Origin: Gigantopelta aegis
Lineage: Eukaryota; Mollusca; Gastropoda; Neomphalida; Peltospiridae
DNA: 64,000 nucleotides
Assembly: GCF_016097555.1 (NCBI RefSeq)
Contig: NC_054703.1
Span: forward strand, 17,059,969 to 17,123,968
Reading direction: 5' to 3'
In this document: positions 1,344-64,000 of the stretch, piece by piece
How positions within the stretch are numbered: position 1 is the stretch's first letter
How the letters are laid out: each line of letters opens with the position of its first letter
The notes under the pieces: model-generated
Database searches by the model: none
What the model saw: the letters and a program-made list of their open reading frames with translations, nothing else
What the model was told of the DNA's origin: nothing
Made by a program: the position numbers and the translations under genes

Positions 1344-3175
<1,832 letters not shown>

Positions 3176-4335
3176 CTACAAATTTTAAATTATTATATAT
3201 ATATCACATATATTTTCTAGCATATCCAGTGTAATCAAAGTACACGTATGTGATATTTTTTAGATCACATACTTTCAGAATTTAATAACTTTGCAAATTA
3301 GATGTAAATTAATTAAGGTCACGGCACTACATTTATTGACATTTAAACAAACGTACTATGGTGACACTTCATAACTAACATATGCATTCATAGTTATCAA
3401 ACAAAAACATTTCAATAGCAACTATTTGGTTGTAATTTTTTAATTAAAATAAAGAGATCGTTTTTTAAACATACACTAGAAATCACCAGTAGCTATCATT
3501 CAATACCCTCAAAGAAAACGACAAAGGAATCCATAACACCAATATATTAGGTTTATTACATTTTTACATGATTTTGTATGCATATCCATGTATGTACAAT
3601 ATAGGACTCAACACAATTCCCTAACATTTTTCCAGATTGCATTACACCCAAATACAATTCCCTGTATTTTCCCTAAATCAGACAAAAAATGTCAAATTCT
3701 CTGAATTTTCCCTTCAGGGAATTTTTTAAAACCATTTTTCCTGTTTTCTCAGTCCCGTGGGAACCCCGTGTTGGTGACATTGCACTCAGTGTTTAAAAGC
3801 GATATATTAAATACAACTGTAAACAAAACATTATCCCATCATTCCTGACTTGCTGGAAGCAGGGACTCCATAAGTACTTGAGTACTTGAGTACTTGGGCA
3901 CGGGGCGAGTCGAGCAAGACTCGAGTACCCATGCAAGGAAGAGCACTCTCATTTAATTATATTTGTTTATGTTATTTTGCCATATTATGGTACGGTCTGG
4001 TTTGCAACTATTTTAGCCAAATCAAGCCAAGTTGTTTCCATCAGCATGTTATGGTTAGCCGCAGTGACAGAAACCGATCAGAAAATGTGATTGTCAAAAG
4101 TTGGTCGGAGCATGACATGTGCAACAAAGCCTGCCCACATTGTGTGCTACTTCTACTGATGAATGCCTCACTGATGAAGAACCAATACCACAAGCATTAA
4201 TCCAACTGTATATGATTGATCGCATGAAGTGACATCTAAATCTCTTATATCAATTACTGTACTTGATAGATTAGTGGCTCCAGGGGAGTTGCTAATGTTT
4301 ATAAAAGGTTCATGTGAATGTGAGTATTCATGTAG
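3176..4335. other. AT-rich non-coding stretch
   Basis: No exon, RNA or recognisable element was seen. There is a short tandem GAGTACTT motif near 3875-3895. On the minus strand this may be intron of the TSP1 gene. Confidence 0.35.
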
Positions 4336-29030: not shown

Positions 29031-30515
29031 CTTTTCAAAAAAAGAAACGCAAAAGGGTACAAATGGGTTATAACTCCGATTTTATGTTTCCTACCGGTTC
29101 ATGCTTTGTGAATATAAGGTCATTGCATGTCCCAAACACATTCCCACGGTTACATTCGATAAAACGCAGCTACTGTACAATAAAGTTCCAAAATGTGAAT
29201 ATTCGCAAAAACGCAGCCACGTGCAAACCATGTCACCACTGCCCTTGCGTTGTCTGCACGTACAACATGAACACCGACAGTATAAAAGTGCAGGGTGTTC
29301 GCTTGCCTGGCCTCTGTATCTGGCCGACAGTTGACAATCCAGGACATGCCACGTCTCAGTGAACCGCAGAGAAACAATGCCATCGGCCGACTAGACGCAG
29401 GCGAATCCAGAACGGCCGTTGCCAGGGCATTCCATGTGTCCCCAAGCACCATCTCCAGACTGTGGGACCGTTACCAGCAACATGGATCAACACGTGACCT
29501 CCCTAGATCCGGTCGACCACGGGTCACTACCCCCGGGCAGGACCGCTACATCCGGGTACGCCACCTTCGGGAACGATTGACTACTGCCACCTCCACAGCC
29601 GCAGCAATACCAGGTTTGCGCAGGATATCCGACCAGACCGTACGGAACCGCCTACGTGAGGTAGGAATTCGTGCCAGACGTCCAGTTCGAGGTGTCATCT
29701 TAACACCACAACACCGTCGACTCCGACTGCAGTGGTGCCAGATTCATCGACAATGGCCTCAACTGCGATGGAGACAGGTGTGGTTCAGTGACGAGTCCCG
29801 ATTTCTGCTCCGACGTCATGATGGAAGATGTCGCGTGTATAGGCGTCGTGGTGAACGTTATGCGGCAAACTGCGTGCAGGAAGTGGACAGATTCGGCGGG
29901 GGTAGTGTCATGGTGTGGGCAGCCATCTCACACACTGGCAGAACTGACCTGGTCCACGTGCAGGGCAACCTGAATGCACAGGGCTACATTGACCAGATCC
30001 TCCGGCCACACATCGTTCCAGTTATGGCCAACGCCAACGCAGTGTTCCAACATGACAACGCCAGGCCTCACACAGCACGTCTCACAACGGCTTTCCTACA
30101 GAACCACAACATTAATGTCCTTCCTTGGCCATCGATATCACCGGATTTGAACCCAATTGAGCATCTATGGGACGAGTTGGACCGACAGCGACAACCGCAG
30201 CCCCAGACCCTTCCCGAGCTGGCAGCAGCCTTGCAGGCCGAGTGGGCCACCATCCCCCGGGACGTCATCCGTACTCTGGTTGCTTCAATGGGCAGGCGGT
30301 GCCAGGCAGTTGTCAACACACGCGGAGGCCACACCCGGTATCGACTCCAGATGACCTTAACCTTGGTGGTGTGTCCTATCACTTACTCACAATGGACTAG
30401 AGTGAATTGTGAACAATCCTGCAACATTTGGTAATTATCGGACTCACCATTCAATAATGAAATCAATTCTCCAAATGTTACGACAATGTGGTTTTGCGTT
30501 TCTTCTTTTGAAGAG
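29031..30515 (+). mobile_element. Tc1-family transposon, apparently whole, 1,485 bp
   Basis: Flanked by TA on both sides (29029-29030 and 30516-30517), the Tc1/mariner target. The 24-bp terminal inverted repeats match at 22 positions and share the core AAGAAACGCAAAA (left 29031-29054, right 30492-30515). The single gene inside is uninterrupted. Near-perfect ends and an intact frame suggest a young copy. Confidence 0.92.
29346..30434 (+). CDS. Tc1-family transposase, DD34E, 362 aa
   Basis: Cut-and-paste transposase. The N-terminal part (about 1-60) is a paired-type helix-turn-helix DNA-binding region (S-R-T-A-V-A-R-A-F-H-V-S-P-S-T-I-S-R) followed by the GRPR-like linker R-S-G-R-P-R. The catalytic residues are D149 (W-F-S-D-E-S-R-F), D237 (F-Q-H-D-N-A-R-P-H-T-A) and E272 (N-P-I-E-H-L-W-D), with exactly 34 residues between the second D and the E. 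G-G-G-S-V-M-V-W is also typical. The frame opens upstream at an ATG at 29295. I choose 29346 (M-P-R-L-S-E) because homologous transposases begin close to the helix-turn-helix; 29295 is possible. All catalytic residues are present. Confidence 0.92.
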   Translation: MPRLSEPQRNNAIGRLDAGESRTAVARAFHVSPSTISRLWDRYQQHGSTRDLPRSGRPRVTTPGQDRYIRVRHLRERLTTATSTAAAIPGLRRISDQTVRNRLREVGIRARRPVRGVILTPQHRRLRLQWCQIHRQWPQLRWRQVWFSDESRFLLRRHDGRCRVYRRRGERYAANCVQEVDRFGGGSVMVWAAISHTGRTDLVHVQGNLNAQGYIDQILRPHIVPVMANANAVFQHDNARPHTARLTTAFLQNHNINVLPWPSISPDLNPIEHLWDELDRQRQPQPQTLPELAAALQAEWATIPRDVIRTLVASMGRRCQAVVNTRGGHTRYRLQMTLTLVVCPITYSQWTRVNCEQSCNIW

Positions 30516-30887: not shown

Positions 30888-32956
30888 TTTTAAATTACGT
30901 TAACATTGTCTGCAGGAGAAGGGAGATGGTCGTTCAAAGAAGCAGGTTATTTTACTTACGTTAACATTGTCTGCAGGAGAAGGGAGATGGTCGTTCAATG
31001 AAGCAGGTTATTTTACTTACGTTAACATTGTCTGCAGGAGAAGGGAGATGGTCGTTCAAAGAAGCAGGTTATTTTACTTACGTTAACATTGTCTGCAGGA
31101 GAAGGGAGATGGTCGTTCAAAGAAGCAGGTTATTTTACTTACGTTAACATTGTCTGCTGGAGAAGGGAGATGGTCGTTCAAAGAAGCAGGTTATTTTACT
31201 TACGTTAACATTGTCTGCTGAAGGGAGATGGTCGTTCAATGAAGCAGGTTATTTTACTTACGTTAACATTGTCTGCAGGAGAAGGGAGATGGTCGTTCAA
31301 AGAAGCAGGTTATTTTACTTACGTTAACATTGTCTGCTGGAGAAGGGAGATGGTCGTTCAAAGAAGCAGGTTATTTTACTTACGTTAACATTGTCTGCTG
31401 AAGGGAGATGGTCGTTCAATGAAGCAGGTTATTTTACTTACGTTAACATTGTCTGCAGGAGAAGGGAGATGGTCGTTCAAAGAAGCAGGTTATTTTACTT
31501 ACGTTAACATTGTCTGCAGGAGAAGGGAGATGGTCGTTCAAAGAAGCAGGTTATTTTACTTACGTTAACATTGTCTGCAGAAGGGAGATGGTCGTTCAAA
31601 GAAGCAGGTTATTTTACTTACGTTAACATTGTCTGCAGGAGAAGGGAGATGGTCGTTCAATGAAGCAGGTTATTTTACTTACGTTAACATTGTCTGCAGG
31701 AGAAGGGAGATGGTCGTTCAAAGAAGCAGGTTATTTTACTTACGTTAACATTGTCTGCAGGAGAAGGGAGATGGTCGTTCAATGAAGCAGGTTATTTTAC
31801 TTACGTTAACATTGTCTGCAGGAGAAGGGAGATGGTCGTTCAAAGAAGCAGGTTATTTTACTTACGTTAACATTGTCTGCAGGAGAAGGGAGATGGTCGT
31901 TCAAAGAAGCAGGTTATTTTACTTACGTTAACATTGTCTGCTGGAGAAGGGAGATGGTCGTTCAAAGAAGCAGGTTATTTTACTTACGTTAACATTGTCT
32001 GCTGAAGGGAGATGGTCGTTCAATGAAGCAGGTTATTTTACTTACGTTAACATTGTCTGCAGGAGAAGGGAGATGGTCGTTCAAAGAAGCAGGTTATTTT
32101 ACTTACGTTAACATTGTCTGCAGGAGAAGGGAGATGGTCGTTCAAAGAAGCAGGTTATTTTACTTACGTTAAGATTGTCTGCAGAAGGGAGATGGTCGTT
32201 CAAAGAAGCAGGTTATTTTACTTACGTTAACATTGTCTGCAGGAGAAGGGAGATGGTCGTTCAATGAAGCAGGTCATTTTACTTACGTTAACATTGTCTG
32301 CAGGAGAAGGGAGATGGTCGTTCAAAGAAGCAGGTCATTTTACTTACGTTAACATTGTCTGCAGGAGAAGGGAGATGGTCGTTCAAAGAAGCAGGTTATT
32401 TTACTTACGTTAACATTGTCTGCAGGAGAAGGGAGATGGTCGTTCAAAGAAGCAGGTTATTTTACTTACGTTAACATGGTCTGCAGGAGAAGGGAGATGG
32501 TCGTTCAAAGAAGCAGGTTATTTTACTTACGTTAACATTGTCTGCTGGAGAAGGGAGATGGTCGTTCAAAGAAGCAGGTTATTTTACTTACGTTAACATT
32601 GTCTGCTGGAGAAGGGAGATGGTCGTTCAATGAAGCAGGTTATTTTACTTACGTTAACATTGTCTGCAGGAGAAGGGAGATGGTCGTTCAATGAAGCAGG
32701 TCATTTTACTTACGTTAACATTGTCTGCAGGAGAAGGGAGATGGTCGTTCAAAGAAGCAGGTCATTTTACTTACGTTAACATTGTCTGCAGGAGAAGGGA
32801 GATGGTCGTTCAAAGAAGCAGGTTATTTTACTTACGTTAACATTGTCTGCAGGAGAAGGGAGATGGTCGTTCAAAGAAGCAGGTTATTTTACTTACGTTA
32901 ACATTGTCTGCAGGAGAAGGGAGATGGTCGTTCAATGAAGCAGGTTATTTTACTTC
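30888..32956 (-). repeat. 61-bp minisatellite with splice-site motifs, about 34 copies
   Basis: The plus unit includes TTACGTTAACATTGTCTGCA, GGAGAAGGGAGATGGTCGTT and GAAGCAGGTTATTTTAC. Copies are highly uniform. Variants are A/T in CAA(A/T)GAAG, GCAGG/GCTGG, and a short deletion to GCTGAAGG or GCAGAAGG. On the minus strand each unit reads CTCCCTTCTCCTGCAG (a strong acceptor), 11 nt ACAATGTTAAC, then GTAAGTAAAA (a strong donor). No flanking gene could be assigned. Confidence 0.95.
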
Positions 32957-43748: not shown

Positions 43749-43894
43749 CTATTCCATCATCGTAATGGCATCAGCAAACTGAAGGACTGCTCGGTCAAGC
43801 CACGTGATTGGTGCAGGAGTCATGATCCCGCCTTCAAAGTGACCAAGATGGCCGCCATGCTTTGTAACAGCAAATATACACTTGTCATGAGTAG
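43749..43894 (-). CDS. ABHD2: ABHD2 last exon, catalytic His
   Basis: Acceptor TTCTCTTTCCAG|CTACTC. Codes A-T-H-D-K-C-I-F-A-V-T-K-H-G-G-H-L-G and then P-I-T-W-L-D-R-A-V-L-Q-F to the stop TAG at 43749-43751. It starts in phase 1 and completes the split Ala codon. Confidence 0.92.
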
Positions 43895-45056: not shown

Positions 45057-48000
45057 GTTTGTATTTGTGTGTATTTGTGTGTGTGTTTGTGTGTGTATGT
45101 GTCTGTGTGTATGTGTCTGTGTGTGTGTGTGTGTGTCTGTGTGTGTGTGTCTGTGTGAGTGTGTATAAGTGTGAGTGTGTGTGTTGACACTGAACCCAAC
45201 TCTGAAAATATCCATTGCCTCCACACCCATCCCCCACATCCCCCAGGTGAAAGGCTAATAATGTATAACTGGCTCCTTCAATTGCTGGCATAATCCTACA
45301 TGTACATCTACAACACAATGAGAGTTTCAAAAAACATATTTTCATTTTTGAGGGAGGTACATGTATGTAAGCAACTTGTTGATTTAAGCGCTTTGGATAC
45401 AGATGATATTAAATCTATAAATATCCATTTTTAGGTTAAAAATGGATCATGACACAATTCTTCTCCAGTTAGTTTCAATGAATGAATAAATGAATGAATG
45501 TTTAATGACATCCCAGCACAAAAAATACATCTGCCATTGGGTATCAAACCCAGTTACATGTAGTTTGAATGCAATTTGTATATTTAGTTTATACAATTGT
45601 TATATTTAATTTAATAAGACAAGTTAGCCTTATGCATGATTGGAATTGATTTAATCTAATGCAGTCAGAAACCTATTTGCATCACATGTACAATGTATTA
45701 CAATGTATTCTTAACAATCTTTGAGTGCCATACACAATACTCATACATGTATACATACACAATACTCATACATGTATACATGTATATTGTTGGATACCAG
45801 TACTTTGATAAATCACAGGAAGATTAATTTTTAAGATGTAGCAGCTACTGAATTAAGGTATTTAGAACTTAGAGGTGTCGGTGAGCCTTATGTCTTATGC
45901 TTAAGAATATGTCTGTGGAATCATGGACTGGACAACCCTCATGTTGGCTTTGCTGTTATTACCTGCATAACGTTTGGCAGTTTCTTGTAGGACTGATGGC
46001 ACAAGAGGATCATCCTCCGCATTCAGCACGAACATCGGGATATCTATCTGAAATATAATTAACATATTGATGACTATGCTGTATTTGATGATTATACTGT
46101 ACTGGATAACTATGTTGTGTTTGATGATTATACTGACCTGGATAACTATGTTGTATTTGAGAATTATACTGTACTGGATACCTATGTTGTATTTGAGAAT
46201 TATACTGTACTGGATAACTATGCTGTATTTGAGAATTATACTGTACTGGATAACTATGCTGTATTTGAGAATTATACTGTACTGGATAACTATGCTGTAT
46301 TTGAGAATTATACTGTACTGGATAACTATGCTGTATTTGAGAATTATACTGTACTGGATAACTATGTTGTATTTGAGAATTATACTGTACTGGATAACTA
46401 TGTTGTATTTGAGAATTATACTGTACTAGATAACTAGAGCACACCGACTTATTAATCATTGACTATTGGGTGTCAAACATTTAGAAATTTAAACATATAG
46501 TCAGGGATGGAACCCACTACATTTTTCCATTAGTAGCAAGGGATCTTTCATGGTGCATCATCCCACAACAGGATAGCACATACCACAGCCTTTGATAAAT
46601 GGGGATCAATCCCAAACTGACCATACATTATGCTAATGCTTTACTGATGGGGTACGTCCTGCCCCTCACTATACAGTTTGGGTGTTGGTGTAGGTAATAA
46701 TGGCATGCTTCCATCAGAGAACTGTTCAAGCACGCCTGTCTGGGGTACAACCTTTGAGTTTGTCTGAGAGTTCTGTCCATGACAGTGAGTACACTTTGGT
46801 CTATGTCATGATCCTCACTATACAGTTAATGCCAATTCATTCGTTTGTCTGTGATGCAAATGAAGCACGAAGCTGACCGATAATCACCAACTGATAATCA
46901 CTAATGGCCCTGTCACACTGTTGCGTATCGTACTAGCGTATGTCAGCGTATGAAAAATATCACTCATACGCTGGTATACGCTGACATATGCTAGGGGTAA
47001 GTGAGGCATAGGTTGTATACATTTGAAGCACGGTGGCATACGCTGGCATATGGTGAGGTAGAACATTATTTTTAAACATGTTTAAAAATGTTGTGTGTAC
47101 TCCGACGTATGTTTATACGCTAAGCATACGTTAGGCAGACGCTGAAAATGCTAGAGGTAAGCTAGAGGTACGTGACTCCTAGGTCGAGTACGCTGGTCGT
47201 ACGCTGACATGAAGGTGTACCGTATAGCTAGCGTATTGATAGCGCATGAGTAACGTACTTCTAACGTATGTCTGACATATCTGCAACGTATATAGACATC
47301 TTGGCGTATGCCTGACAATTGAATAACATTATTAACGTACAACTAGCGTATGATTGGCGTCAGGCCAGCTTATACCCAGTGTATTGCCAGCGTTTTGAGA
47401 AAGTGTACATATAGGTTCCCATTTCTAGCTCTTCTTCACTTCTTCGTGGACCTCGACGAGAGACGATGGAGGTAGCTCTTCTCCAAAACCAGCATGATCT
47501 GATGAATTTGGCAGTTCACCACATCCAAGACTGCCCTTGATATAGGCACTTTGTCATGTGATCGAGATATGCTGGACATACGCAGTTCATACGCTACTCA
47601 TACGCTAGCCATACGCAGAGTAACGCTGGCCATAGGTTAACATTTCCTGACATTTGCTGGTCATACGCTACTCATAGGTTAAATACAGTAAGTATACGCA
47701 CAATTCTGCATTTTCAAGGGCTTCTTGTGCGTATGAAAATTATTTTATGAATTTTCATACGCAACTCATATGTTTCTCTCATACGCTATAGTGTGACAGG
47801 GCCATAACTGATGATCACTAACTGATAATAACTGATGATCACTAACTGATGATCACTAACTGATAATAACTGATGATCACTAACTGATGATCTCTGATGA
47901 TCACTAACTTACTGATAATCACTAACTGATGATCACCAACTGATGATATCTAACTGATGATCGCTGATGATTACTGATGATAACTTAACTGATGATCACT

Positions 48001-51000
48001 AACTGATGATCACTAAATGATCACTAACTGATAATCACTAACAGATGATCACTAACAGATGACCACTAACTGCTCACATTGTTCATGACGTGGCGACAGC
48101 TGGCCCAGGTGTAGTAGTCAACATGATTGGAGAAACCCGCCCGCTGGCTGAAACAAACACAAGTTAGTTACAATCAAACAACCATCTCTTACACAATACA
48201 CAACTCACACATTCATAGTAACAAGCACTTTACTTACCTCAAACAATTAAAAACACATTCATAGTAACAAGCACTGAATTTACCTCCAACAATTAAAAAA
48301 ACATTCATAGTAACAAGCACTTAACTTACCTAAACAATTACACACCCTAAAAGAACACAGTGGGTTCCACGAACCTACATGGATTACTCAAACAAGGCAA
48401 TTTATTTAGTTTGGACTAACATCAAGATCATCACAGTATTACAGCTGTCATATTAATATTCTCGTCCAGACCCAGGGCCCTTATTTTCGAACCTATCTTA
48501 ACAATACGAGATTGTAAAACCATTATAAACTATGACATCACTATGGCGTGTGCTGAAGTAATATCATAGCCTACAATGATTTTCACGATTCATAGTGCTT
48601 AGATAGCTTCAAAAATATAGGCCTGCTGCTATAGTTAATGTTTAATGGCGATGAGCACCACAATATTACAGCTGCTATAGTTAATGTTTAATGGCGATGA
48701 GCACCACACTATTACAGCTGCTATAGTTAATGTTTAATGGTGATGAGCACAATATTACAGCTGCTATAGTTAATGTTTAATGGTGATCAACACCACAATA
48801 TTACAGCTGCTATAGTTAATGACCGGCCTCGGTGGTGTCGTGGTCAGCCATTGGCTACAGGCTGGTAGGTACTGGGTTCGAATCCCAGTCGAGGCATGGG
48901 ATTTTTAATCCAGATACCGACTCCAAACCCTGAGTGAGTGCTCCGCAAGGCTCAGTGGTTAGGTGTAAACCACTTACACTCACCAGTGATCCATAACTGG
49001 TTCAACAAAGGCCATGGTTTGTGCTATCCTGCCTGTGGGAAGCGCAAATAAAAGATCCCTTGCTGCTAATCGGAAGAGTAGCTCATATAGTGGTAACAGC
49101 GGGTTTCCTCTCAAAATCTGTGTGGTCCTTAACCATATGTCCGACGCCATATAACCGTAAATAAAATGTGTTGAGTGCGTCGTTAAATAAAACATTTCTT
49201 TCTTTCTATAGTTAATGTTAAATGATGATGATCACAAGATTACAGCTGCTATAGTTAATGTTAAATGATGATGATCACAATATTACAGCTGCTATAGTTA
49301 ATGTTAAATGATGATGATCACAATATTATAGCTGCTATAGTTAATGTTTATTGGTGATGATCACCATAATACTACAGCTGCTATAGTTAATGTTAAATGA
49401 TGATGATCACAATATTACAGCTGCTATAGTTAATGTTAAATGATGATGATCACAATATTACAGCTGCTATAGTTAATGTTAAATGATGATGATCACAATA
49501 TTACAGCTGCTATAGTTAATGTTTAATGGCGATGAACACCACAATACTACAGCTGTTATAGTTAATGTTTAATGGCGATGATCACAATACTACAGCTGCT
49601 ATAGTTAATGTTAAATGATGATGATCACAATATTACAGCTGCTATAGTTAATGTTTAATGGCGATGAACACCACAATACTACAGCTGCTATAGTTAATGT
49701 TTAATGGTGATGATCACCATAATACTACAGCTGCTAGTTAATGTTAAATGATGATGATCACAATATTACAGCTGCTATAGTTAATGTTTAATGGCGATGA
49801 TCACCACAATACTACAGCTGCTATAGTTAATGTTAAATGATGATGATCACAATACTACAGCTGCTATAGTTAATGTTTAATGGCGATGATCACAATATTA
49901 CAGCAAGTACACAATATTACAGCTGCTATAGTTAATGTTAAATGATGATGATCACAATATTACAGCTGCTATAGTTAATGTTAAATGATGATGATGATGA
50001 TCACACCACAATATTACAGCTGCTATAGTTAATGTTTAATGGCGATGAACCACAATACTACAGCTGTTATAGTTAATGTTTAATGGCGATGAGCACCACA
50101 ATATACAACTGCTATAGTTAATGTTTAATGGCGATGAGCACCACACTATTACAGCTGCTATAGTTAATGTTTAATAGCGATAATCACCACAATATTACAG
50201 CTGCTATAGTTAATGTTTAATGGTGATGAGCACCACAATATTACAGCTGCTATAGTTAATGTTTAATGGTGATGAGCACCACAATATTACAGCTGCTATA
50301 GTTAAAGGGACACACCCTAGTTACGTTTATTTGTTAACCATTACGGCGTTGTTTTTCGCTATTAAGCCCCATTTTTCACAAATAAAATTGCACTTTACTT
50401 ACATTTTATTATTTAGAATACACATTTCCATTCACCTGAAGTGCTTTTTGGTAATCCTGATGTTTGTAAAACCACAAAATGCATTTTTTGCATTTTTTCA
50501 CAAAACGTGTTGTCCGAGAAAAAACCGTTAAGCAAGCGAGGTCCAATCTATCTTTAATGTCACAGACGTTTGTATATCACGTGACCATTATCATTTTGGT
50601 TCGGTTTATTTTCTCGTGCACGGTTCGCGCAATAAACATCCGATTTGTTGTTGTTCATTTGTGAGATTTTTCTTCACAGTTCGTGAACATTTTCAGTAAC
50701 AATAAAGTTCAGACAAGTAAGTGTCTCAATACAAAACGTTACAAACCTTTAAAACCAATAATTTTGCTAAGTCTTACGATATCTGGAGAGGGGATACAAC
50801 CAGGACAGAACAGTTGGAACATGTCCAGGAGAGGTGAAACGAACGCACCCCAAGTCTGTGAAATTTGTCATGACGTAGGTAGGCATTGTTGTGCTTCTAC
50901 CGGTGACATCAGAATACTAACTTTCAAAATTATTTCAAGCAATTGGGACATGGGGATTTCCATGGTATTTATCGATATAAAACCTGCTTTTTCACTCCAT

Positions 51001-54000
51001 TTGATAAAAACGTGATCTAAGTGTGTTACAGGTTTGTAGATTAACTAAATTATAATTTATTTTCGCTGGATGGAACTAGGGTGTGCGGCTTTAATGTTTA
51101 ATGGTGATGAGCACCACAATATTACAGCTGCTATAGTTAATGTTTAATGGTGATGAACACCACAATATTACAGCTGCTATAGTTAATGTTTAATGGTGAT
51201 AATCACCACAATATTACAGCTGCTATAGTTAATGTTTAATGGTGATGAGCACCACAATATTACAGCTGCTATAGTTAATGTTTAATGGTGATGAGCACCA
51301 CAATATTACAGCTGCTATAGTTAATGTTTAGTGGTAATGAGCACCACAATATTACAGCTGCTATAGTTAATGTTTAATGGCGATAATCACCACAATATTA
51401 CAGCTGCTATAGTTAATGTTTAATGGTGATGAGCACCACACTATTACAGCTGCTATAGTTAATGTTTAATGGTGATGAGCACCACAATATTACAGCTGCT
51501 ATATGTTTAATGGTGATGAACACCACAATATTACAGCTGCTATAGTTAATGTTTAATGGCGATGAGCACCACAATACTACAGCTGCTATAGTTAATGTTT
51601 AATGGCGATGAGCACCACAATATTACAGCTGCTATATGTTTAATGGTGATGAACACCACAATATTACAGCTGCTATAGTTAATGTTTAATGGCGATGAGC
51701 ACCACAATACTACAGCTGCTATAGTTAATGTTTAATGGCGATGAGCACCACAATATTACAGCTGCTATATGTTTAATGGTGATGAGCACCACAATATTAC
51801 AGCTGCTATAGTTAATGTTTAATGGTGATGAGCACCACAATATTGCAGCTGCTATATGTTTAATGGTGATGAGCACCACAATATTACAGCTGCTATAGTT
51901 AATGTTTAATGGCGATAATCACCACACAATACTACAGCTGCTATAGTTAATGTTTAATGGCGATGAGCACCACAATATTACAGCTGCTATATGTTTAATG
52001 GTGATGAACACCACAATATTACAGCTGCTATAGTTAATGTTTAATGGCGATGAGCACCACAATATTACAGCTGCTATAGTTAATGTTTAATGGCGATGAG
52101 CACCACAATATTACAGCTGCTATATGTTTAATGGTGATGAACACCACAATATTACAGCTGCTATAGTTAATGTTTAATGGCGATGAGCACCACAATATTA
52201 CAGCTGCTATAGTTAATGTTTAGTGGCGATGAGCACCACAACATTACAGCTGCTATAGTTAATGTTTAATGGCGATGAGCACCACACTATTACAGCTGCT
52301 ATAGTTAATGTTTAATGGCGATGAGCACCACAACATTACAGCTGCTATAGTTAATGTTTAACGGCGATGAGCACCACAATATTACAGCTGCTATATGTTT
52401 AACGGCGATGAGCACCACAACATTACAGCTGCTATAGTTAATGTTTAATGGCGAAAATCACCACAATATTACAGCTGCTATATGTTTAATGGCGATGAGC
52501 ACCACAATATTACAGCTGCTATAGTTAATGTTTAATGGCGATGAGCACCACAATATTAGAGCTGCTATAGTTAATGTTTAATGGCGATGAGCACCACAAT
52601 ATTACAGCTGCTATAGTTAATGTTTAATGGCGATGAGCACCACAATATTACAGCTGCTATAGTTAATGTTTAATGGTGATGAGCACCACAATATTACAGC
52701 TGCTGTATGTTTAATGGCGATGAGCACCACAATATTACAGCTGCTATAGTTAATGTTTAATGGTGATTACAGATAGAATGTTTACGATGAACACCATAAT
52801 ATTACAGCTGCTATAGTTAATGTTTAACGGTGATGAGCACCACAATATTACAGATGTTAATGTTTACGGTGATGAGCACCACAATATTACAGCTGCTATA
52901 GTTAATGTTTATTGGTGATTACAGCTGCTATAGTTAATGTTTAACGGTGATGAGCACCACAATATTACAGCTGCTATAGTTAATGTTTAACGGTGATGAG
53001 CACCACAATATTACAGCTGCTATAGTTAATGTTTAACGGTGATGAGCACCACAATATTACAGCTGCTATAGTTAATGTTTAACGGTGATGAGCACCACAA
53101 TATTACAGCTGCTATAGTTAATGTTTAATGGCGATAATCACCACAATATTACAGCTGCTATAGTTAATGTTTAATGGTGATGAGCACCACACTATTACAG
53201 CTGCTATAGTTAATGTTTAATGGTGATGAGCACCACACTATTACAGCTGCTATAGTTAATGTTTAATGGCGATGATCACCACAATACTACAGCTGCTATA
53301 GTTAATGTTAAATGATGATGATCACAATACTACAGCTGCTATAGTTAATGTTTAATGGCGATGATCACCACAATACTACAGCTGCTATAGTTAATGTTAA
53401 ATGATGATGATCACAATATTACAGCTGCTATAGTTAATGTTAAATGATGATGATCACAATATTACAGCTGCTATAGTTAATGTTAAATGATGATGATCAC
53501 AATATTACAGCTGCTATAGTTAATGTTTAATGGCGATGAGCACCACAATATTACAGCTGCTATAGTTAATGTTTAATGGCGATGAACACCACAATACTAC
53601 AGCTGTTATAGTTAATGTTTAATGGCGATGAGCACCACAATATTACAACTGCTATAGTTAATGTTTAATGGCGATGAGCACCACACTATTACAGCTGCTA
53701 TAGTTAATGTTTAATAGCGATAATCACCACAATATTACAGCTGCTATAGTTAATGTTTAATGGTGATGAGCACCACAATATTACAGCTGCTATAGTTAAT
53801 GTTTAATGGTGATGAGCACCACAATATTACAGCTGCTATAGTTAAAGGGACACACCCTAGTTACGTTTATTTGTTAACCATTACGGCGTTGTTTTTCGCT
53901 ATTAAGCCCCATTTTTCACAAATAAAATTGCACTTTACTTACATTTTATTATTTAGAATACACATTTCCATTCACCTGAAGTGCTTTTTGGTAATCCTGA

Positions 54001-57000
54001 TGTTTGTAAAACCACAAAATGCATTTTTTGCATTTTTTCACAAAACGTGTTGTCCGAGAAAAAACCGTTAAGCAAGCGAGGTCCAATCTATCTTTAATGT
54101 CACAGACGTTTGTATATCACGTGACCATTATCATTTTGGTTCGGTTTATTTTCTCGTGCACGGTTCGCGCAATAAACATCCGATTTGTTGTTGTTCATTT
54201 GTGAGATTTTTCTTCACAGTTCGTGAACATTTTCAGTAACAATAAAGTTCAGACAAGTAAGTGTCTCAATACAAAACGTTACAAACCTTTAAAACCAATA
54301 ATTTTGCTAAGTCTTACGATATCTGGAGAGGGGATACAACCAGGACAGAACAGTTGGAACATGTCCAGGAGAGGTGAAACGAACGCACCCCAAGTCTGTG
54401 AAATTTGTCATGACGTAGGTAGGCATTGTTGTGCTTCTACCGGTGACATCAGAATACTAACTTTCAAAATTATTTCAAGCAATTGGGACATGGGGATTTC
54501 CATGGTATTTATCGATATAAAACCTGCTTTTTCACTCCATTTGATAAAAACGTGATCTAAGTGTGTTACAGGTTTGTAGATTAACTAAATTATAATTTAT
54601 TTTCGCTGGATGGAACTAGGGTGTGCGGCTTTAATGTTTAATGGTGATGAGCACCACAATATTACAGCTGCTATAGTTAATGTTTAATGGTGATGAACAC
54701 CACAATATTACAGCTGCTATAGTTAATGTTTAATGGTGATAATCACCACAATATTACAGCTGCTATAGTTAATGTTTAATGGTGATGAGCACCACAATAT
54801 TACAGCTGCTATAGTTAATGTTTAATGGTGATGAGCACCACAATATTACAGCTGCTATAGTTAATGTTTAGTGGTAATGAGCACCACAATATTACAGCTG
54901 CTATAGTTAATGTTTAATGGCGATAATCACCACAATATTACAGCTGCTATAGTTAATGTTTAATGGTGATGAGCACCACACTATTACAGCTGCTATAGTT
55001 AATGTTTAATGGTGATGAGCACCACAATATTACAGCTGCTATATGTTTAATGGTGATGAACACCACAATATTACAGCTGCTATAGTTAATGTTTAATGGC
55101 GATGAGCACCACAATACTACAGCTGCTATAGTTAATGTTTAATGGCGATGAGCACCACAATATTACAGCTGCTATATGTTTAATGGTGATGAACACCACA
55201 ATATTACAGCTGCTATAGTTAATGTTTAATGGCGATGAGCACCACAATACTACAGCTGCTATAGTTAATGTTTAATGGCGATGAGCACCACAATATTACA
55301 GCTGCTATATGTTTAATGGTGATGAGCACCACAATATTACAGCTGCTATAGTTAATGTTTAATGGTGATGAGCACCACAATATTGCAGCTGCTATATGTT
55401 TAATGGTGATGAGCACCACAATATTACAGCTGCTATAGTTAATGTTTAATGGTGATAATCTTCACAATACTACAGCTGCTATAGTTAATGTTTAATGGCG
55501 ATGAGCACCACAATATTACAGCTGCTATATGTTTAATGGTGATGAACACCACAATATTACAGCTGCTATAGTTAATGTTTAATGGCGATGAGCACCACAA
55601 TATTACAGCTGCTATAGTTAATGTTTAATGGCGATGAGCACCACAATATTACAGCTGCTATATGTTTAATGGTGATGAACACCACAATATTACAGCTGCT
55701 ATAGTTAATGTTTAATGGCGATGAGCACCACAATATTACAGCTGCTATAGTTAATGTTTAGTGGCGATGAGCACCACAACATTACAGCTGCTATAGTTAA
55801 TGTTTAATGGCGATGAGCACCACACTATTACAGCTGCTATAGTTAATGTTTAATGGCGATGAGCACCACAACATTACAGCTGCTATAGTTAATGTTTAAC
55901 GGCGATGAGCACCACAATATTACAGCTGCTATATGTTTAACGGCGATGAGCACCACAACATTACAGCTGCTATAGTTAATGTTTAATGGCGAAAATCACC
56001 ACAATATTACAGCTGCTATATGTTTAATGGCGATGAGCACCACAATATTACAGCTGCTATAGTTAATGTTTAATGGCGATGAGCACCACAATATTAGAGC
56101 TGCTATAGTTAATGTTTAATGGCGATGAGCACCACAATATTACAGCTGCTATAGTTAATGTTTAATGGCGATGAGCACCACAATATTACAGCTGCTATAG
56201 TTAATGTTTAATGGTGATGAGCACCACAATATTACAGCTGCTGTATGTTTAATGGCGATGAGCACCACAATATTACAGCTGCTATAGTTAATGTTTAATG
56301 GTGATTACAGCTGCTATAGTTAATGTTTAATGGCGATGAACACCATAATATTACAGCTGCTATAGTTAATGTTTAACGGTGATGAGCACCACAATATTAC
56401 AGCTGCTATAGTTAATGTTTAACGGTGATGAGCACCACAATATTACAGCTGCTATAGTTAATGTTTATTGGTGATTACAGCTGCTATAGTTAATGTTTAA
56501 CGGTGATGAGCACCACAATATTACAGCTGCTATAGTTAATGTTTAACGGTGATGAGCACCACAATATTGCAGCTGCTATAGTTAATGTTTAACGGTGATG
56601 AGCACCACAATATTACAGCTGCTATAGTTAATGTTTAACGGTGATGAGCACCACAATATTACAGCTGCTATAGTTAATGTTAAATGATGATGATCACAAT
56701 ATTACAGCTGCTATAGTTAATGTTTAATGGCGATGAGCACCACAATATTACAGCTGCTATAGTTAATGTTTAATGGCGATGAACACCACAATACTACAGC
56801 TGTTATAGTTAATGTTTAATGGCGATGAGCACCACAATATTACAACTGCTATAGTTAATGTTTAATGGCGATGAGCACCACACTATTACAGCTGCTATAG
56901 TTAATGTTTAATAGCGATAATCACCACAATATTACAGCTGCTATAGTTAATGTTTAATGGTGATGAGCACCACAATATTACAGCTGCTATAGTTAATGTT

Positions 57001-60000
57001 TAATGGTGATGAGCACCACAATATTACAGCTGCTATAGTTAAAGGGACACACCCTAGTTACGTTTATTTGTTAACCATTACGGCGTTGTTTTTCGCTATT
57101 AAGCCCCATTTTTCACAAATAAAATTGCACTTTACTTACATTTTATTATTTAGAATACACATTTCCATTCACCTGAAGTGCTTTTTGGTAATCCTGATGT
57201 TTGTAAAACCACAAAATGCATTTTTTGCATTTTTTCACAAAACGTGTTGTCCGAGAAAAAACCGTTAAGCAAGCGAGGTCCAATCTATCTTTAATGTCAC
57301 AGACGTTTGTATATCACGTGACCATTATCATTTTGGTTCGGTTTATTTTCTCGTGCACGGTTCGCGCAATAAACATCCGATTTGTTGTTGTTCATTTGTG
57401 AGATTTTTCTTCACAGTTCGTGAACATTTTCAGTAACAATAAAGTTCAGACAAGTAAGTGTCTCAATACAAAACGTTACAAACCTTTAAAACCAATAATT
57501 TTGCTAAGTCTTACGATATCTGGAGAGGGGATACAACCAGGACAGAACAGTTGGAACATGTCCAGGAGAGGTGAAACGAACGCACCCCAAGTCTGTGAAA
57601 TTTGTCATGACGTAGGTAGGCATTGTTGTGCTTCTACCGGTGACATCAGAATACTAACTTTCAAAATTATTTCAAGCAATTGGGACATGGGGATTTCCAT
57701 GGTATTTATCGATATAAAACCTGCTTTTTCACTCCATTTGATAAAAACGTGATCTAAGTGTGTTACAGGTTTGTAGATTAACTAAATTATAATTTATTTT
57801 CGCTGGATGGAACTAGGGTGTGCGGCTTTAATGTTTAATGGTGATGAGCACCACAATATTACAGCTGCTATAGTTAATGTTTAATGGTGATGAACACCAC
57901 AATATTACAGCTGCTATAGTTAATGTTTAATGGTGATAATCACCACAATATTACAGCTGCTATAGTTAATGTTTAATGGTGATGAGCACCACAATATTAC
58001 AGCTGCTATAGTTAATGTTTAATGGTGATGAGCACCACAATATTACAGCTGCTATAGTTAATGTTTAGTGGTAATGAGCACCACAATATTACAGCTGCTA
58101 TAGTTAATGTTTAATGGCGATAATCACCACAATATTACAGCTGCTATAGTTAATGTTTAATGGTGATGAGCACCACACTATTACAGCTGCTATAGTTAAT
58201 GTTTAATGGTGATGAGCACCACAATATTACAGCTGCTATATGTTTAATGGTGATGAACACCACAATATTACAGCTGCTATAGTTAATGTTTAATGGCGAT
58301 GAGCACCACAATACTACAGCTGCTATAGTTAATGTTTAATGGCGATGAGCACCACAATATTACAGCTGCTATATGTTTAATGGTGATGAACACCACAATA
58401 TTACAGCTGCTATAGTTAATGTTTAATGGCGATGAGCACCACAATACTACAGCTGCTATAGTTAATGTTTAATGGCGATGAGCACCACAATATTACAGCT
58501 GCTATATGTTTAATGGTGATGAGCACCACAATATTACAGCTGCTATAGTTAATGTTTAATGGTGATGAGCACCACAATATTGCAGCTGCTATATGTTTAA
58601 TGGTGATGAGCACCACAATATTACAGCTGCTATAGTTAATGTTTAATGGTGATAATCTTCACAATACTACAGCTGCTATAGTTAATGTTTAATGGCGATG
58701 AGCACCACAATATTACAGCTGCTATATGTTTAATGGTGATGAACACCACAATATTACAGCTGCTATAGTTAATGTTTAATGGCGATGAGCACCACAATAT
58801 TACAGCTGCTATAGTTAATGTTTAATGGCGATGAGCACCACAATATTACAGCTGCTATATGTTTAATGGTGATGAACACCACAATATTACAGCTGCTATA
58901 GTTAATGTTTAATGGCGATGAGCACCACAATATTACAGCTGCTATAGTTAATGTTTAGTGGCGATGAGCACCACAACATTACAGCTGCTATAGTTAATGT
59001 TTAATGGCGATGAGCACCACACTATTACAGCTGCTATAGTTAATGTTTAATGGCGATGAGCACCACAACATTACAGCTGCTATAGTTAATGTTTAACGGC
59101 GATGAGCACCACAATATTACAGCTGCTATATGTTTAACGGCGATGAGCACCACAACATTACAGCTGCTATAGTTAATGTTTAATGGCGAAAATCACCACA
59201 ATATTACAGCTGCTATATGTTTAATGGCGATGAGCACCACAATATTACAGCTGCTATAGTTAATGTTTAATGGCGATGAGCACCACAATATTAGAGCTGC
59301 TATAGTTAATGTTTAATGGCGATGAGCACCACAATATTACAGCTGCTATAGTTAATGTTTAATGGCGATGAGCACCACAATATTACAGCTGCTATAGTTA
59401 ATGTTTAATGGTGATGAGCACCACAATATTACAGCTGCTGTATGTTTAATGGCGATGAGCACCACAATATTACAGCTGCTATAGTTAATGTTTAATGGTG
59501 ATTACAGCTGCTATAGTTAATGTTTAATGGCGATGAACACCATAATATTACAGCTGCTATAGTTAATGTTTAACGGTGATGAGCACCACAATATTACAGC
59601 TGCTATAGTTAATGTTTAACGGTGATGAGCACCACAATATTACAGCTGCTATAGTTAATGTTTATTGGTGATTACAGCTGCTATAGTTAATGTTTAACGG
59701 TGATGAGCACCACAATATTACAGCTGCTATAGTTAATGTTTAACGGTGATGAGCACCACAATATTGCAGCTGCTATAGTTAATGTTTAACGGTGATGAGC
59801 ACCACAATATTACAGCTGCTATAGTTAATGTTTAACGGTGATGAGCACCACAATATTACAGCTGCTATAGTTAATGTTTAATGGCGATAATCACCACAAT
59901 ATTACAGCTGCTATAGTTAATGTTTAATGGTGATGAGCACCACACTATTACAGCTGCTATAGTTAATGTTTAATGGTGATGAGCACCACAATATTACAGC

Positions 60001-60262
60001 TGCTATAGTTAATGTTTAATGGTGATGATCCATTAAACAGGTATTCTTCAACACCGATTCTCACCTGCTAAAGTTCTCATCCAGCTCAACCAAAGATGTT
60101 GAAGAAAATATTTTATCCACGTCCACTGGGCCGTAAAGTTTCTTCGCATCTTCTCCAAACAGAATGGAGTAGTTTTTGCGAAGGAGTAGTTTCATGTTTT
60201 CTGTCATAAAGAACACGTAGGCGCGTCTGAGATTCTCCCATTCCATCAGTAATGGCTTAGCT
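43749..60262 (-). CDS. ABHD2: ABHD2-type monoacylglycerol lipase, C-terminal four coding exons (5' part beyond the window)
   Basis: Minus-strand exons 60065-60262, 48078-48147, 45963-46047 and 43749-43894 join in frame and code about the last 165 residues. ABHD2 is a membrane-anchored alpha/beta-hydrolase that cleaves monoacylglycerols. Compared from memory with human ABHD2: M-E-W-E-N-L-R-R-A-Y for M-Q-W-D-Q-C-R-R-F-Y; T-E-N-M-K for A-D-N-M-K; L-F-G-E-D for L-F-G-D-H; N-A-E-D-D-P-L-V for N-A-A-D-D-P-L-V, with the catalytic Asp; H-G-G-H-L-G-H-F-E-G for H-G-G-H-L-G-F-F-E-G, with the catalytic His. The nucleophile Ser lies in exons right of the window. The protein stops at A-D-A-I-T-M-M-E, shorter than the human tail. 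The preceding exon's 3' end is multiplied in the array at 60505-64000. Confidence 0.9.
44208..44512 (-). mobile_element. SINE type A, minus strand, near full length
   Basis: From the tail (GTTTGTTTTGTTTAACGATA) through TACTGGATGTCAAACATG, AGGGATCTTTTATATGGACC and TGGTGCACTGGCTGGAACGA to the tRNA-like head (GAGCGCTTTACCACTGAACT). A small ATATACATGTATGTACA insertion lies within it. Confidence 0.85.
44513..45187. repeat. Long imperfect (TG)n array
   Basis: About 670 bp of GTGTGTG interrupted by TATTTG and TATG. It sits in the last ABHD2 intron, directly beside the head of a SINE. All long frames here (C-V and H-T repeats) are artefacts. Confidence 0.97.
45188..45962. other. ABHD2 intron, unique part
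   Basis: Two copies of ACACAATACTCATACATGTA near 45733-45782 and GAATGAATAAATGAATGAAT near 45479. Nothing else recognised. Confidence 0.45.
45963..46047 (-). CDS. ABHD2: ABHD2 exon with the catalytic Asp
   Basis: Acceptor TTATATTTCAG|ATAGAT, donor TATGCAG|GTAATA. Codes I-D-I-P-M-F-V-L-N-A-E-D-D-P-L-V and then L-Q-E-T-A-K-R-Y-A plus one base. The D-D-P-L-V Asp is the triad acid. Confidence 0.92.
46066..46436. repeat. 36-bp minisatellite, about ten copies
   Basis: Unit TATTTGAGAATTATACTGTA followed by CTGGATAACTATG(T/C)TG. It begins about 20 bp upstream of the ABHD2 acceptor at 46047. The 36-bp period keeps frames open on both strands. Confidence 0.95.
46437..46672 (-). mobile_element. SINE type A, minus strand
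   Basis: GAGCACACCGACTTATTAAT, ATTGGGTGTCAAACATTTAG, AGCAAGGGATCTTTCATGGT and GATAGCACATACCACAGCC, ending at a degraded head. A diverged TTCAAGCACGCCTGTCTGGG segment at about 46725-46790 resembles the type B SINE body on the minus strand. Confidence 0.8.
46876..48070. repeat. ~14-bp (AACTGATGATCACT)n array in an ABHD2 intron
   Basis: Irregular units ACTAACTGATGATC or ACTAACTGATAATC at 46876-46904 and 47805-48070, split by the 900-bp MITE. On the minus strand the array starts about six bases after the donor of the exon at 48078. Confidence 0.85.
46905..47804. mobile_element. PIF/Harbinger-like non-autonomous element, 900 bp
   Basis: Termini TGGCCCTGTCACACT and AGTGTGACAGGGCCA are perfect inverted repeats, flanked by TAA (46902-46904 and 47805-47807). 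A 3-bp TAA or TTA duplication is the PIF/Harbinger signature. The arms are full of diverged GCGTATG/CATACGC repeats. The centre (about 47420-47550) is less repetitive and has a 24-codon frame from ATG 47466, perhaps the remnant of a longer parent. Confidence 0.8.
48078..48147 (-). CDS. ABHD2: ABHD2 exon, 70 bp
   Basis: Acceptor TTTGTTTCAG|CCAGCGG, donor AACAAT|GTGAGC. Codes Q-R-A-G-F-S-N-H-V-D-Y-Y-T-W-A-S-C-R, aligning with the human region K-F-H-G-Y-N-S-L-K-E-Y-Y-E-E-E-S-C. The phase fits both neighbours. Confidence 0.88.
48185..48345. repeat. ~55-bp repeat, three copies
   Basis: CACATTCATAGTAACAAGCA, CTTA(C/A)CTTACCT and AACAATTAAAAA recur three times just upstream (minus strand) of the ABHD2 acceptor at 48147. 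Confidence 0.85.
48346..48621. other. ABHD2 intron, unique part
   Basis: Nothing recognised before the 46-bp array begins. Confidence 0.4.
48822..49207 (+). mobile_element. Mosaic tRNA-SINE (type B head, type A tail)
   Basis: The head ACCGGCCTCGGTGGTGTCGT, GGCTGGTAGGTACTGGGTTC and GAATCCCAGTC matches the type B head, with a good B box (GGTTCGAATCCC). The body and tail GTGCTATCCTGCCTGTGGGA, AAATAAAAGATCCCTTGCTG and GTCGTTAAATAAAACATTTC match type A. CTATAGTTAATG lies on both sides, as expected of a target duplication, though the array itself also repeats it. It appears complete and fairly young. Confidence 0.85.
50306..51090. mobile_element. TTAA-target MITE (piggyBac-like), 785 bp, copy 1 of 3
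   Basis: Flanked by TTAA. The ends AGGGACACACCCTAGTT and (reverse-complemented) AGCCGCACACCCTAGTT are inverted repeats. It shares interior sequence with the 398-bp element at 24224. Frames inside, including one of 110 codons, are identical in all three copies and look non-coding. Confidence 0.8.
53846..54630. mobile_element. TTAA-target MITE, copy 2 of 3
   Basis: I saw no difference from the copy at 50306 on reading, and it has the same flanking array units. It was therefore copied together with the array rather than by transposition. Confidence 0.8.
57043..57827. mobile_element. TTAA-target MITE, copy 3 of 3
   Basis: Same as copies 1 and 2. The array to its right shares the GATAATCTTCACAATAC variant with the array right of copy 2 (about 55456 and 58651). 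Copy 1 has GATAATCACCACACAAT there. Copies 2 and 3 are therefore the later duplication. Confidence 0.8.
60065..60262 (-). CDS. ABHD2: ABHD2 exon, 198 bp
   Basis: Acceptor TTTGTTTCAG|AGCTAAG, donor TTTAGCAG|GTGAGA. Starts with the third base of a split Gln codon and then codes A-K-P-L-L-M-E-W-E-N-L-R-R-A-Y-V-F-F, ending V-E-L-D-E-N-F-S plus two bases. The lid-side region of the hydrolase aligns with the human sequence without gaps near its start. Confidence 0.92.
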
Positions 60263-60412
60263 CTGAAACAAACACAAGTCAAACTTTGATAACTTGGTCT
60301 GAGGTTCTCCGTAATGGCTTAACTCTGAAACAAATGTAAGTCAAACTTTGTAACTCAGTCTTAGGTTCTCTGTAATGGCTTAGCTCTGAAACAAATGCAA
60401 GTCAAACTAGTA
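60263..60412 (-). repeat. ABHD2: Two extra degenerate copies of the exon acceptor region
   Basis: TAATGGCTTAxCTCTGAAAC recurs at about 60312 and 60372 with ~61-bp spacing. On the minus strand each copy holds TTTGTTTCAGAG and a piece of the exon start (GTTAAGCCATTACGGAGAAC; GCTAAGCCATTACAGAGAAC), with about ten exon bases missing. The AG positions are 60325-60326 and 60386-60387. Confidence 0.85.
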
Positions 60413-60504
60413 GAAACAAAATAAAATCATAATTATAACAATAACAACAACGTAGGTATAACCATAAATGTTTTTAAATTGAAAATCACATAAAAGATAT
60501 ACAT

Positions 60505-63500
60505 ATGGACATGATGCCTAGTATATATTTGTAAGGTTGATGTCATAACCCTGACAGATGGACATGATGCATATATATCTATACTCACTGGTTGACGTCA
60601 TAACCCTGACAGATGGACATGATGCATATATACTCACTGGTTGACGTCGTAGCCCTGACAGATGGACATGATGCATATATATATATACTCACTGGTTGAC
60701 GTCGTAGCCCTGACAGATGGACATGATGCATATATATCTATACTCACTGGTTGACGTCGTAGCCCTGACAGATGGACATGATGCCTATATATCTATACTC
60801 ACTGGTTGACGTCGTAGCCCTGACAGATGGACATGATGCCTATATATCTATACTCACTGGTTGACGTCGTAGCCCTGACAGATGGACATGATGCATATAT
60901 ACTCACTGGTTGATGTCATAGCCCTGACAGATGGACATGATGCTTATATATCTATACTCACTGGTTGACGTCATAGCCCTGACAGATGGAGATGATGCAT
61001 ATATATCTATACTCACTGGTTGACGTCATAGCCCTGACAGATGGAGATGATGCATATATATCTATACTCACTGGTTGACGTCGTAGCCCTGACAGATGGA
61101 GATGATGCATATATATCTATACTCACTGGTTGACGTCGTAGCCCTGACAGATGGAGATGATGCCTATATATCTATACTCACTGGTTGACGTCGTAGCCCT
61201 GACAGATGGAGATGATGCCTATATATCTATACTCACTGGTTGACGTCGTAGCCCTGACAGATGGACATGATGCATATATATCTATACTCACTGGTTGACG
61301 TCATAGCCCTGACAGATGGAGATGATGCCTATATACTCATACTCACTGGTTGACGTCATAGCCCTGACAGATGGACATGATGCATATATATCTATACTCA
61401 CTGGTTGACGTCGTAGCCCTGACAGATGGACATGATGCATATATATCTATACTCACTGGTTGACGTCGTAGCCCTGACAGATGGACATGATGCATATATA
61501 TCTATACTCACTGGTTGACGTCATAGCCCTGACAGATGGACATGATGCATATATACTCACTGGTTGACGTCGTAGCCCTGACAGATGGACATGATGCATA
61601 TATACTCACTGGTTGACGTCGTAGCCCTGACAGATGGACATGATGCATATATATCTATACTCACTGGTTGACGTCATAGCCCTGACAGATGGAGATGATG
61701 CCTATATACTCACTGGTTGATGTCGTAGCCCTGACAGATGGACATGATGCATATATACTCACTGGTTGACATCATAGCCCTGACAGATGGACATGATGCA
61801 TATATATCTATACTCACTGGTTGACGTCGTAGCCCTGACAGATGGACATGATGCTTATATATCTGTACTCACTGGTTGACGTCGTAGCCCTGACAGATGG
61901 ACATGATGCATATATATCTATACTCACTGGTTGATGTCATAGCCCTGACAGATGGACATGATGCATATATATCTGTACTCACTGGTTGATGTCATAGCCC
62001 TGACAGATGGACATGATGCATATATATCTATACTCACTGGTTGATGTCATAGCCCTGACAGATGGACATGATGCCTATATATCTATACTCACTGGTTGAC
62101 ATCGTAGCCCTGACAGATGGATATGATGCATATATACTCACTGGTTGATGTCGTAGCCCTGACAGATGGACATGATGCCTATATATCTATACTCACTGGT
62201 TGACATCATAACCCTGACAGATGGACATGATGCATATATACTCACTGGTTGACGTCATAGCCCTGACAGATGGACATGATGCATATATACTCACTGGTTG
62301 ACGTCATAGCCCTGACAGATGGACATGATGCATATATACTCACTGGTTGATGTCGTAGCCCTGACAGATGGACATGATGCATATATACTCACTGGTTGAC
62401 GTCGTAGCCCTGACAGATGGACATGATGCTTATATATCTGTACTCACTGGTTGATGTCATAGCCCTGACAGATGGACATGATGCATATATATCTGTACTC
62501 ACTGGTTGACGTCATAGCCCTGACAGATGGACATGATGCATATATACTCACTGGTTGATGTCGTAGCCCTGACAGATGGACATGATGCATATATACTCAC
62601 TGGTTGACGTCGTAGCCCTGACAGATGGACATGATGCATATATACTCACTGGTTGACGTCGTAGCCCTGACAGATGGAGATGATGCCTATATACTCACTG
62701 GTTGATGTCGTAGCCCTGACAGATGGACATGATGCATATATACTCACTGGTTGACGTCGTAGCCCTGACAGATGGACATGATGCTTATATATCTGTACTC
62801 ACTGGTTGATGTCATAGCCCTGACAGATGGACATGATGCATATATATCTGTACTCACTGGTTGACATCATAGCCCTGACAGATGGACATGATGCCTATAT
62901 ATCTATACTCACTGGTTGACATCGTAGCCCTGACAGATGGACATGATGCATATATATTTGTACTCACTGGTTGATGTCATAGCCCTGACAGATGGACATG
63001 ATGCCTATATATCTATACTCACTGGTTGACATCGTAGCCCTGACAGATGGACATGATGCATATATATCTGTACTCACTGGTTGACATCGTAGCCCTGACA
63101 GATGGACATGATGCCTATATATCTATACTCACTGGTTGACATCGTAGCCCTGACAGATGGACATGATGCATATATATTTGTACTCACTGGTTGATGTCAT
63201 AGCCCTGACAGATGGACATGATGCCTATATATCTATACTCACTGGTTGACATCGTAGCCCTGACAGATGGACATGATGCATATATATCTGTACTCACTGG
63301 TTGATGTCATAGCCCTGACAGATGGAGATGATGCATATATATCTATACTCACTGGATGATGTCATAGCCCTGACAGATGGACATGATGCCTATATATCTA
63401 TACTCACTGGTTGACATCGTAGCCCTGACAGATGGACATGATGCATATATACTCACTGGTTGACGTCGTAGCCCTGACAGATGGACATGATGCCTATATA

Positions 63501-64000
63501 TCTATACTCACTGGTTGACGTCATAGCCCTGACAGATGGACATGATGCATATATACTCACTGGTTGACGTCGTAGCCCTGACAGATGGACATGATGCATA
63601 TATACTCACTGGTTGACGTCGTAGCCCTGACAGATGGACATGATGCATATATACTCACTGGTTGACGTCGTAGCCCTGACAGATGGACATGATGCATATA
63701 TACTCACTGGTTGACGTCATAGCCCTGACAGATGGACATGATGCATATATATCTATACTCACTGGTTGATGTCGTAGCCCTGACAGATGGACATGATGCA
63801 TATATATCTATACTCACTGGTTGACGTCATAGCCCTGACAGATGGACATGATGCCTATATATCTATACTCACTGGTTGACGTCATAGCCCTGACAGATGG
63901 ACATGATGCATATATACTCACTGGTTGACGTCGTAGCCCTGACAGATGGATATGATGCATATATACTCACTGGTTGACATCATAGCCCTGACAGATGGAC
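60505..64000 (-). repeat. ABHD2: 49/55-bp array of an ABHD2 exon 3' end plus splice donor, about 65 copies
   Basis: On the minus strand each unit reads ATCATGTCCATCTGTCAGGG, CTACGACGTCAACCA and then GTGAGTATA. The coding part gives M-S-I-C-Q-G-Y-D-V-N, which matches V-S-V-C-Q-G-Y-S-A-L of human ABHD2 at exactly the right place. The donor leaves CA, which the next exon's first A completes to Gln. Units differ by presence of a TATCTA insert (55 versus 49 bp) and by C/T and G/A changes at CpG sites. The array runs off the right edge, so the full exon should lie just beyond. The copy nearest 60505 is decayed. Confidence 0.92.

Follow-up and report, generated by a model that had tools for sequence, protein, structure and literature searches.

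What becomes of an intron whose two ends have both been copied in tandem, and does the gene gain anything from the copies? The question is raised by a stretch of 64,000 nucleotides (hereafter, the window) from the hydrothermal-vent gastropod Gigantopelta aegis. Its minus strand carries the 3′ half of an ABHD2 gene, and in one intron of that gene at least 65 near-identical donors face three near-identical acceptors. Our answer, to which we give a probability of about 0.78, is that a two-sided pair of minisatellites was born by tandem duplication over the borders of this intron and is carried as a tolerated passenger. The features on which the argument rests, and others seen in the window, are collected in Table 1.

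Table 1. Features of the window, numbered from its first base.
Feature	Position	Strand	Remarks
Donor array, 49/55-bp units	60567-64000	minus	65 intact donors in view; continues past base 64000
Interior edge of the donor array	60505-60566	minus	decayed unit 60514-60566 and 9-nt partial unit 60505-60513
Spacer between the two arrays	60409-60504	minus	96 bp
Acceptor array	60249-60408	minus	TTTGTTTCAG-AG(C/T)TAAGCCATTAC, three times; 61 bp × 2.6
ABHD2 exon B	60065-60262	minus	198 nt; donor GTGAGAATCG
ABHD2 exon C	48078-48147	minus	70 nt
ABHD2 exon D	45963-46047	minus	85 nt
ABHD2 last coding exon E	43749-43894	minus	ends with stop TAG
Long exact repeats in intron B-C	50104-59878		50104-51912 (1809 bp) recurs at +3540; 53455-56681 (3227 bp) recurs at +3197
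Array upstream of exon C	48207-48340		46 bp × 2.9; 59 nt to the exon C acceptor
Array near exon C, intron C-D	47804-48072		5 nt to the exon C donor
Array near exon D, intron C-D	46069-46436		21 nt to the exon D acceptor
ORF through the 36-bp array of intron C-D	45901-46425		in frame with exon D
Array with acceptor-like units	30895-32955		61 bp × 34
Tc1/mariner-like transposase frame	29286-30434	plus	long and open; PF13358, PF01498
Retroelement integrase core	22889-23308	minus	PF00665
Two similar ORFs	1339-1569 and 2949-3203	minus	

The gene was recognized with the human ABHD2 protein as query, which matched two exons strongly and a third in part. After the protein match, reading of the minus strand delimited four exons, B to E. 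When the exon end carried by an array unit is joined in phase to exons B-E, the product is a peptide of 176 aa that is identical over its whole length (176/176) to P0004, the NCBI predicted protein monoacylglycerol lipase ABHD2-like isoform X2 of G. aegis (394 aa), which carries the normal junction between exon A and exon B. This confirms the ABHD2 identity, the minus strand and the phase of the exon end in the array. The identical protein also led us to reject amphioxus, where arrays of a similar kind are known, as the source of the window. At full length, P0004 has precomputed PF00561 and PF12146 assignments; Pfam on the 176-aa piece returned no family at 1e-3. A protein search with P0004 gave ABHD2-like proteins of Haliotis as the next matches, at 61% and 58%, among the best 120 of 223 matches. 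The 176-aa piece alone returned only three, because full-length relatives fall outside its length range. The ABHD2-like protein P0012 of Lineus longissimus carries 23 additional residues precisely where the intron with the arrays lies. They may stem from a misprediction or from one more exon inside this intron in another phylum, and they hint at an intron at this site there.

On the donor side, Tandem Repeats Finder reports an array at 60535-64000 with a period of 55 and 65.5 copies. Splitting it at the exonic anchor CTGTCAGGG yields 66 anchors, 42 spacings being of 55 bp and 23 of 49 bp. In each unit the end of exon A (ATG TCC ATC TGT CAG GGC TAC GAC GTC AAC CA), at least 32 nt long by the protein match, continues with GTGAGT and the start of the intron; at the protein level the border is recognized as MSICQGYDVN(Q) of P0004, followed by GTGAGT. 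Among 64 units the peptide reads MSICQGYDVN in 38, MSICQGYDIN in 14 and ISICQGYDVN in 10, with two variants found once each. The segment CAGTGAGT is kept in 64 of the 65 units that have a complete 5′ part and is lost in the innermost one, whose exon part is still recognizable and whose donor is gone; such decay at the interior edge fits ordinary array turnover. The unit at the window edge lacks its 5′ part. With its donor included there are 65 intact GTGAGT donors, their GT running from 63970 down to 60588, and the GT signal is thus retained in 65 of 66 units. This count is a minimum, as the array continues past the end of the window, where the complete exon A also lies. P0004 reads FICG before MSICQGYDVN and the units read I where that G stands; none of the units in view can therefore be the real exon A. 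Exon A, encoding ...FICGMSICQGYDVN, would adjoin the last unit to the right of window base 64000. The motif GTRAGT occurs 65 times on the minus strand of the 3.5-kb array versus 61 times in the other 60.5 kb (18.8 versus 1.0 per kb), an enrichment too strong for chance. A scan of U1 duplex energy at every GT scored two sites in each unit, 131 over the array, and for counting it was replaced by this motif count. One exact 20-base pattern of the array had no match among viral contigs.

The same intron is duplicated at its other end, where Tandem Repeats Finder reports a 61-bp repeat of 2.6 copies that contains the exon B acceptor three times. Their first exonic bases are 60262 (the true one), 60324 and 60385, and the AG signal is kept in 3/3. 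The unit spans the real border, and on this side exon B and its acceptor adjoin their copies inside the window. The alignment of the two inner copies to exon B extends over 28 nt and includes a gap of 10 nt. Past the first 14 nt, the score of copy 60324 is reached by 4 of 5000 shuffled tails and that of copy 60385 by 394 of 5000; we accept homology to exon B over this part for the former, and for the latter, taken alone, the indication is weak. The spacer between the two arrays is the only part of the visible intron (60263-64000) that is not a junction copy. The last 17 intron bases, ACTTGTGTTTGTTTCAG, are common to the acceptors of exons B (60263-60279) and C (48148-48164), and this word occurs twice on the minus strand within the window.

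Most of what the first-pass annotation had read on the donor side stands: the tandem amplification of a real exon-intron junction about 65 times, a donor in the correct phase for the next exon, and an array beginning at 60505, where a 9-nt partial unit ends it. The annotation had taken each unit to hold the last ~35 bases of an ABHD2 exon; that these are an exon end is upheld by the protein match, whose support covers at least 32 nt. The acceptor that it placed at 60262 is the true acceptor of exon B, but the three-copy 61-bp array around it had been missed, as had the earlier description of such structures in amphioxus.

We propose that tandem duplication across both borders of one ABHD2 intron gave rise to the two minisatellites, which would have grown to at least 65 units on the donor side and to three on the acceptor side. 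The arrays would have spread and been homogenized by slippage or unequal exchange, a mode of growth that we infer. They would be tolerated because each duplication leaves one donor beside exon A and one acceptor beside exon B, that is, the outer donor and the outer acceptor stay in place. The spliceosome would join this outermost pair, through exon definition and/or use of the earliest-transcribed donor, and everything between would leave with the intron. Both arrays hold exon sequence continuous with the splice sites, as this explanation has it. It also counts in its favor that amphioxus arrays of the same anatomy, called mirages, are reported to splice normally (PMC3087553, PMC3902484). The two arrays are most likely a tolerated passenger, presumably with no function of their own.

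Each splice choice has a consequence that can be read from the reading frames. After read-through past a donor, TGA is the next in-frame codon after CAG in 65/65 cases; a full-length product therefore requires the most upstream donor. The first-pass annotation had stated both the immediate stop and this restriction, and both held for all donors in view. Splicing to acceptor 60324 leads to a stop after 15 codons and to acceptor 60385 after 8, and from acceptor 60262 the frame is open through the 67 codons of exon B. Only the outermost donor combined with the outermost acceptor can give normal protein. Use of the intron-nearest donor would add 3382 nt to the exon, counted from the first donor in view, and would destroy the ABHD2 protein. 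In DOK7, where two donors compete, the intron-proximal one is preferred, and the same source reports that SRSF1 favors the intron-nearest donor, in many human genes, and that hnRNP A1 favors the intron-distant one (PMC5585400). An intron-proximal preference would be the wrong choice in the ABHD2 intron, and normal splicing should therefore not be taken for granted. In a working gene, either exon definition or transcription order must prevail.

It is conceivable, although we consider it unlikely, that a share of the transcripts uses the inner sites: splicing at an inner donor or acceptor would run into a stop and send the transcript to degradation, and array length would tune ABHD2 output. The early stops at the inner sites in view agree with such a role, and so does the strength of the array donors, which resembles that of the exon B and exon D donors. 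Their U1 duplex energy is −12.1 (−10.9 for the GTGAGTACA form), compared with −12.5 for exon B, −10.1 for exon D and a much weaker −4.9 for exon C, so that they pair about as well as the exon B donor and a little better than the exon D donor. However, the stop is a property of the founder unit, in which CCA-GTGAGT reads CAG TGA, and 65 copies of it are not 65 independent hits. The failure of inner choices follows from the geometry of duplication and the sequence of the founder unit and is therefore not evidence for regulation.

The units also lack a signature of selection. Variation was counted by column, exonic columns on the 64 complete units that keep CAGTGAGT (the decayed innermost unit was dropped) and intronic columns on the 42 long units among them. 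Eleven of 55 columns vary. Two CpGs account for 53 of the 67 exonic variant cells (columns −12, −9 and −8, with 27, 10 and 16 cells), as methylation-driven decay would give, and amino-acid changes (V>I and M>I) are included. The nine splice columns (−3 to +6) are invariant, and the probability that nine given columns are all invariant is 0.11, or 0.19 without the CpG columns. Since this invariance is unremarkable, we rejected selection on the donors as a sign of function; the variation looks unselected, and selection for function appears without support.

Three introns are contained in the window from end to end, and in these the positions of tandem arrays were compared with those of splice junctions. 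The edge gaps are 59, 36, 21, 5, 167 and 181 nt, and a sum of log gaps as small as this was reached in 0.16% of 200,000 random placements (P 0.0016), the figures by intron being 5.2% for B-C, 0.07% for C-D and 47% for D-E, all of them post hoc and from one gene. The arrays are nearer to junctions than random placement would have them, which counts against a purely random birth, as that does not predict closeness; we take it as a lead, no more. A reading slightly less probable than that of regulated decay would go further: arrays would arise preferentially at junctions in this genome, and the concentric ABHD2 arrays would form a device for splice-site choice, with inner sites competing against the outermost pair, array length setting the productive share of transcripts and possibly stepwise re-splicing.

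Other repeats and frames were seen in the window. The two ends of intron C-D are each flanked by a different tandem array, and the frame through its 36-bp array is also open. The units of the array upstream of exon C contain the donor-like AGGTAAGT or a close variant where no exon is known. In the 61-bp array at 30895-32955, the unit has an acceptor-like TTGTCTGCAG, and the stretch behind it is open. A transposase frame and an integrase core are also present (Table 1). The two similar ORFs look like possible thrombospondin type 1 repeats; Pfam on them gave no family at 1e-3.

We find it improbable that assembly from noisy long reads inflated the array or the number of its copies. For the published G. 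aegis assembly, from which we assume the window to come, PacBio subreads, Canu correction and wtdbg2 were used (PMC7895826). The exact 1809-bp and 3227-bp repeats in the next intron may be the mark of a very recent duplication or of misassembly. In the donor array, however, the 65 units represent 31 distinct sequences, and runs of unit types that recur are never longer than three units, which speaks against simple inflation. In addition, its exonic variants are mostly CpG transitions and not indel noise. Up to 9 pairs of identical units occur at one lag, a number reached in 32 of 2000 shuffles, and identical units thus show a weak local clustering.

The first-pass annotation had suggested a U1 snRNP sink or a splicing buffer, neither of which finds support here, and we are just as skeptical about the array as a U1 platform or sink. 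It would bind many U1 particles and either shield the transcript from early polyadenylation or titrate U1. The density of GTRAGT donors is what one would expect from such a platform. However, the donor columns are no more invariant than expected, and it is unlikely that the nascent RNA of one gene could titrate an abundant snRNP. A role as U1 sink or decay buffer is possible, but unsupported. No more credible is stepwise, self-correcting splicing, in which an inner donor and an inner acceptor would join first and leave a shorter intron, flanked by the outer pair, to be removed in a second step: of the 195 donor-acceptor pairs in view, 130 involve one of the upstream acceptor copies and would retain the outermost acceptor for that step, but there are only two inner acceptors, and this geometry is automatic once arrays sit at both ends.

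Taken as a tolerated passenger, the pair of arrays would still be of interest. It is a natural test bench for splice-site choice: presented with near-identical sites, does the cell pick the first-transcribed, the exon-nearest or the intron-nearest one? In the ABHD2 intron each choice gives a different, readable mRNA, and only one yields protein. The locus also points to one route for intron growth, by copies of the intron's own ends. Splice-junction minisatellites, in print for amphioxus and primates, are here extended to a mollusc; in the open-licence literature searched, we found no earlier report of minisatellites across exon borders in molluscs.

The founding paper on mirages is reportedly that of Canestro 2002, on Adh3. 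Mirages are described as tandem arrays spanning exon/intron borders (PMC3087553), at the 5′ or the 3′ border, with short units that hold an exon border and an intron border, many of them with AG/GT (PMC3087553, PMC3902484). They are said to leave regular splicing undisturbed and to be unstable in length, the BflGb6 mirage having 6 and 3 units in two haplotypes (PMC3087553). PGBD5 has 60- and 108-bp repeats at splice sites, in 2 or 7 and 3 or 6 copies depending on the assembly, and TnC is also named with such repeats (PMC3902484). Minisatellites across exon-intron boundaries are likewise reported for human genes in segmental duplications, where internal tandem repeats, on average 30-bp units in four copies, can change introns, altering the coding sequence or making novel introns; in ABHD2, on the other hand, the protein junction is unchanged (compared with PMC2812944). 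As in intron gain by tandem genomic duplication, the duplicated segment bears splice signals, but here an existing intron was enlarged at both ends, with no new intron in evidence (compared with PMC4974935). Minisatellites inside gene introns are also described for a snail, in intron 3 of an abalone TSSK1-like gene (PMC6905558), and for a worm, in intron 1 of earthworm metallothionein (PMC12783039); unlike the ABHD2 units, those units come with no mention of an exon border in the available portions of the two sources. The closest likeness is to the amphioxus mirages, which share with the ABHD2 arrays head-to-tail minisatellite units over real exon/intron borders with AG/GT kept. The ABHD2 arrays differ from them in their mollusc host, in their size (65 units or more, where the passages compared give 6 and 3 for BflGb6 and 2 to 7 for PGBD5) and in standing at both borders of one and the same intron. 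We therefore read them as a probable new, large and two-sided member of the mirage type in a mollusc.
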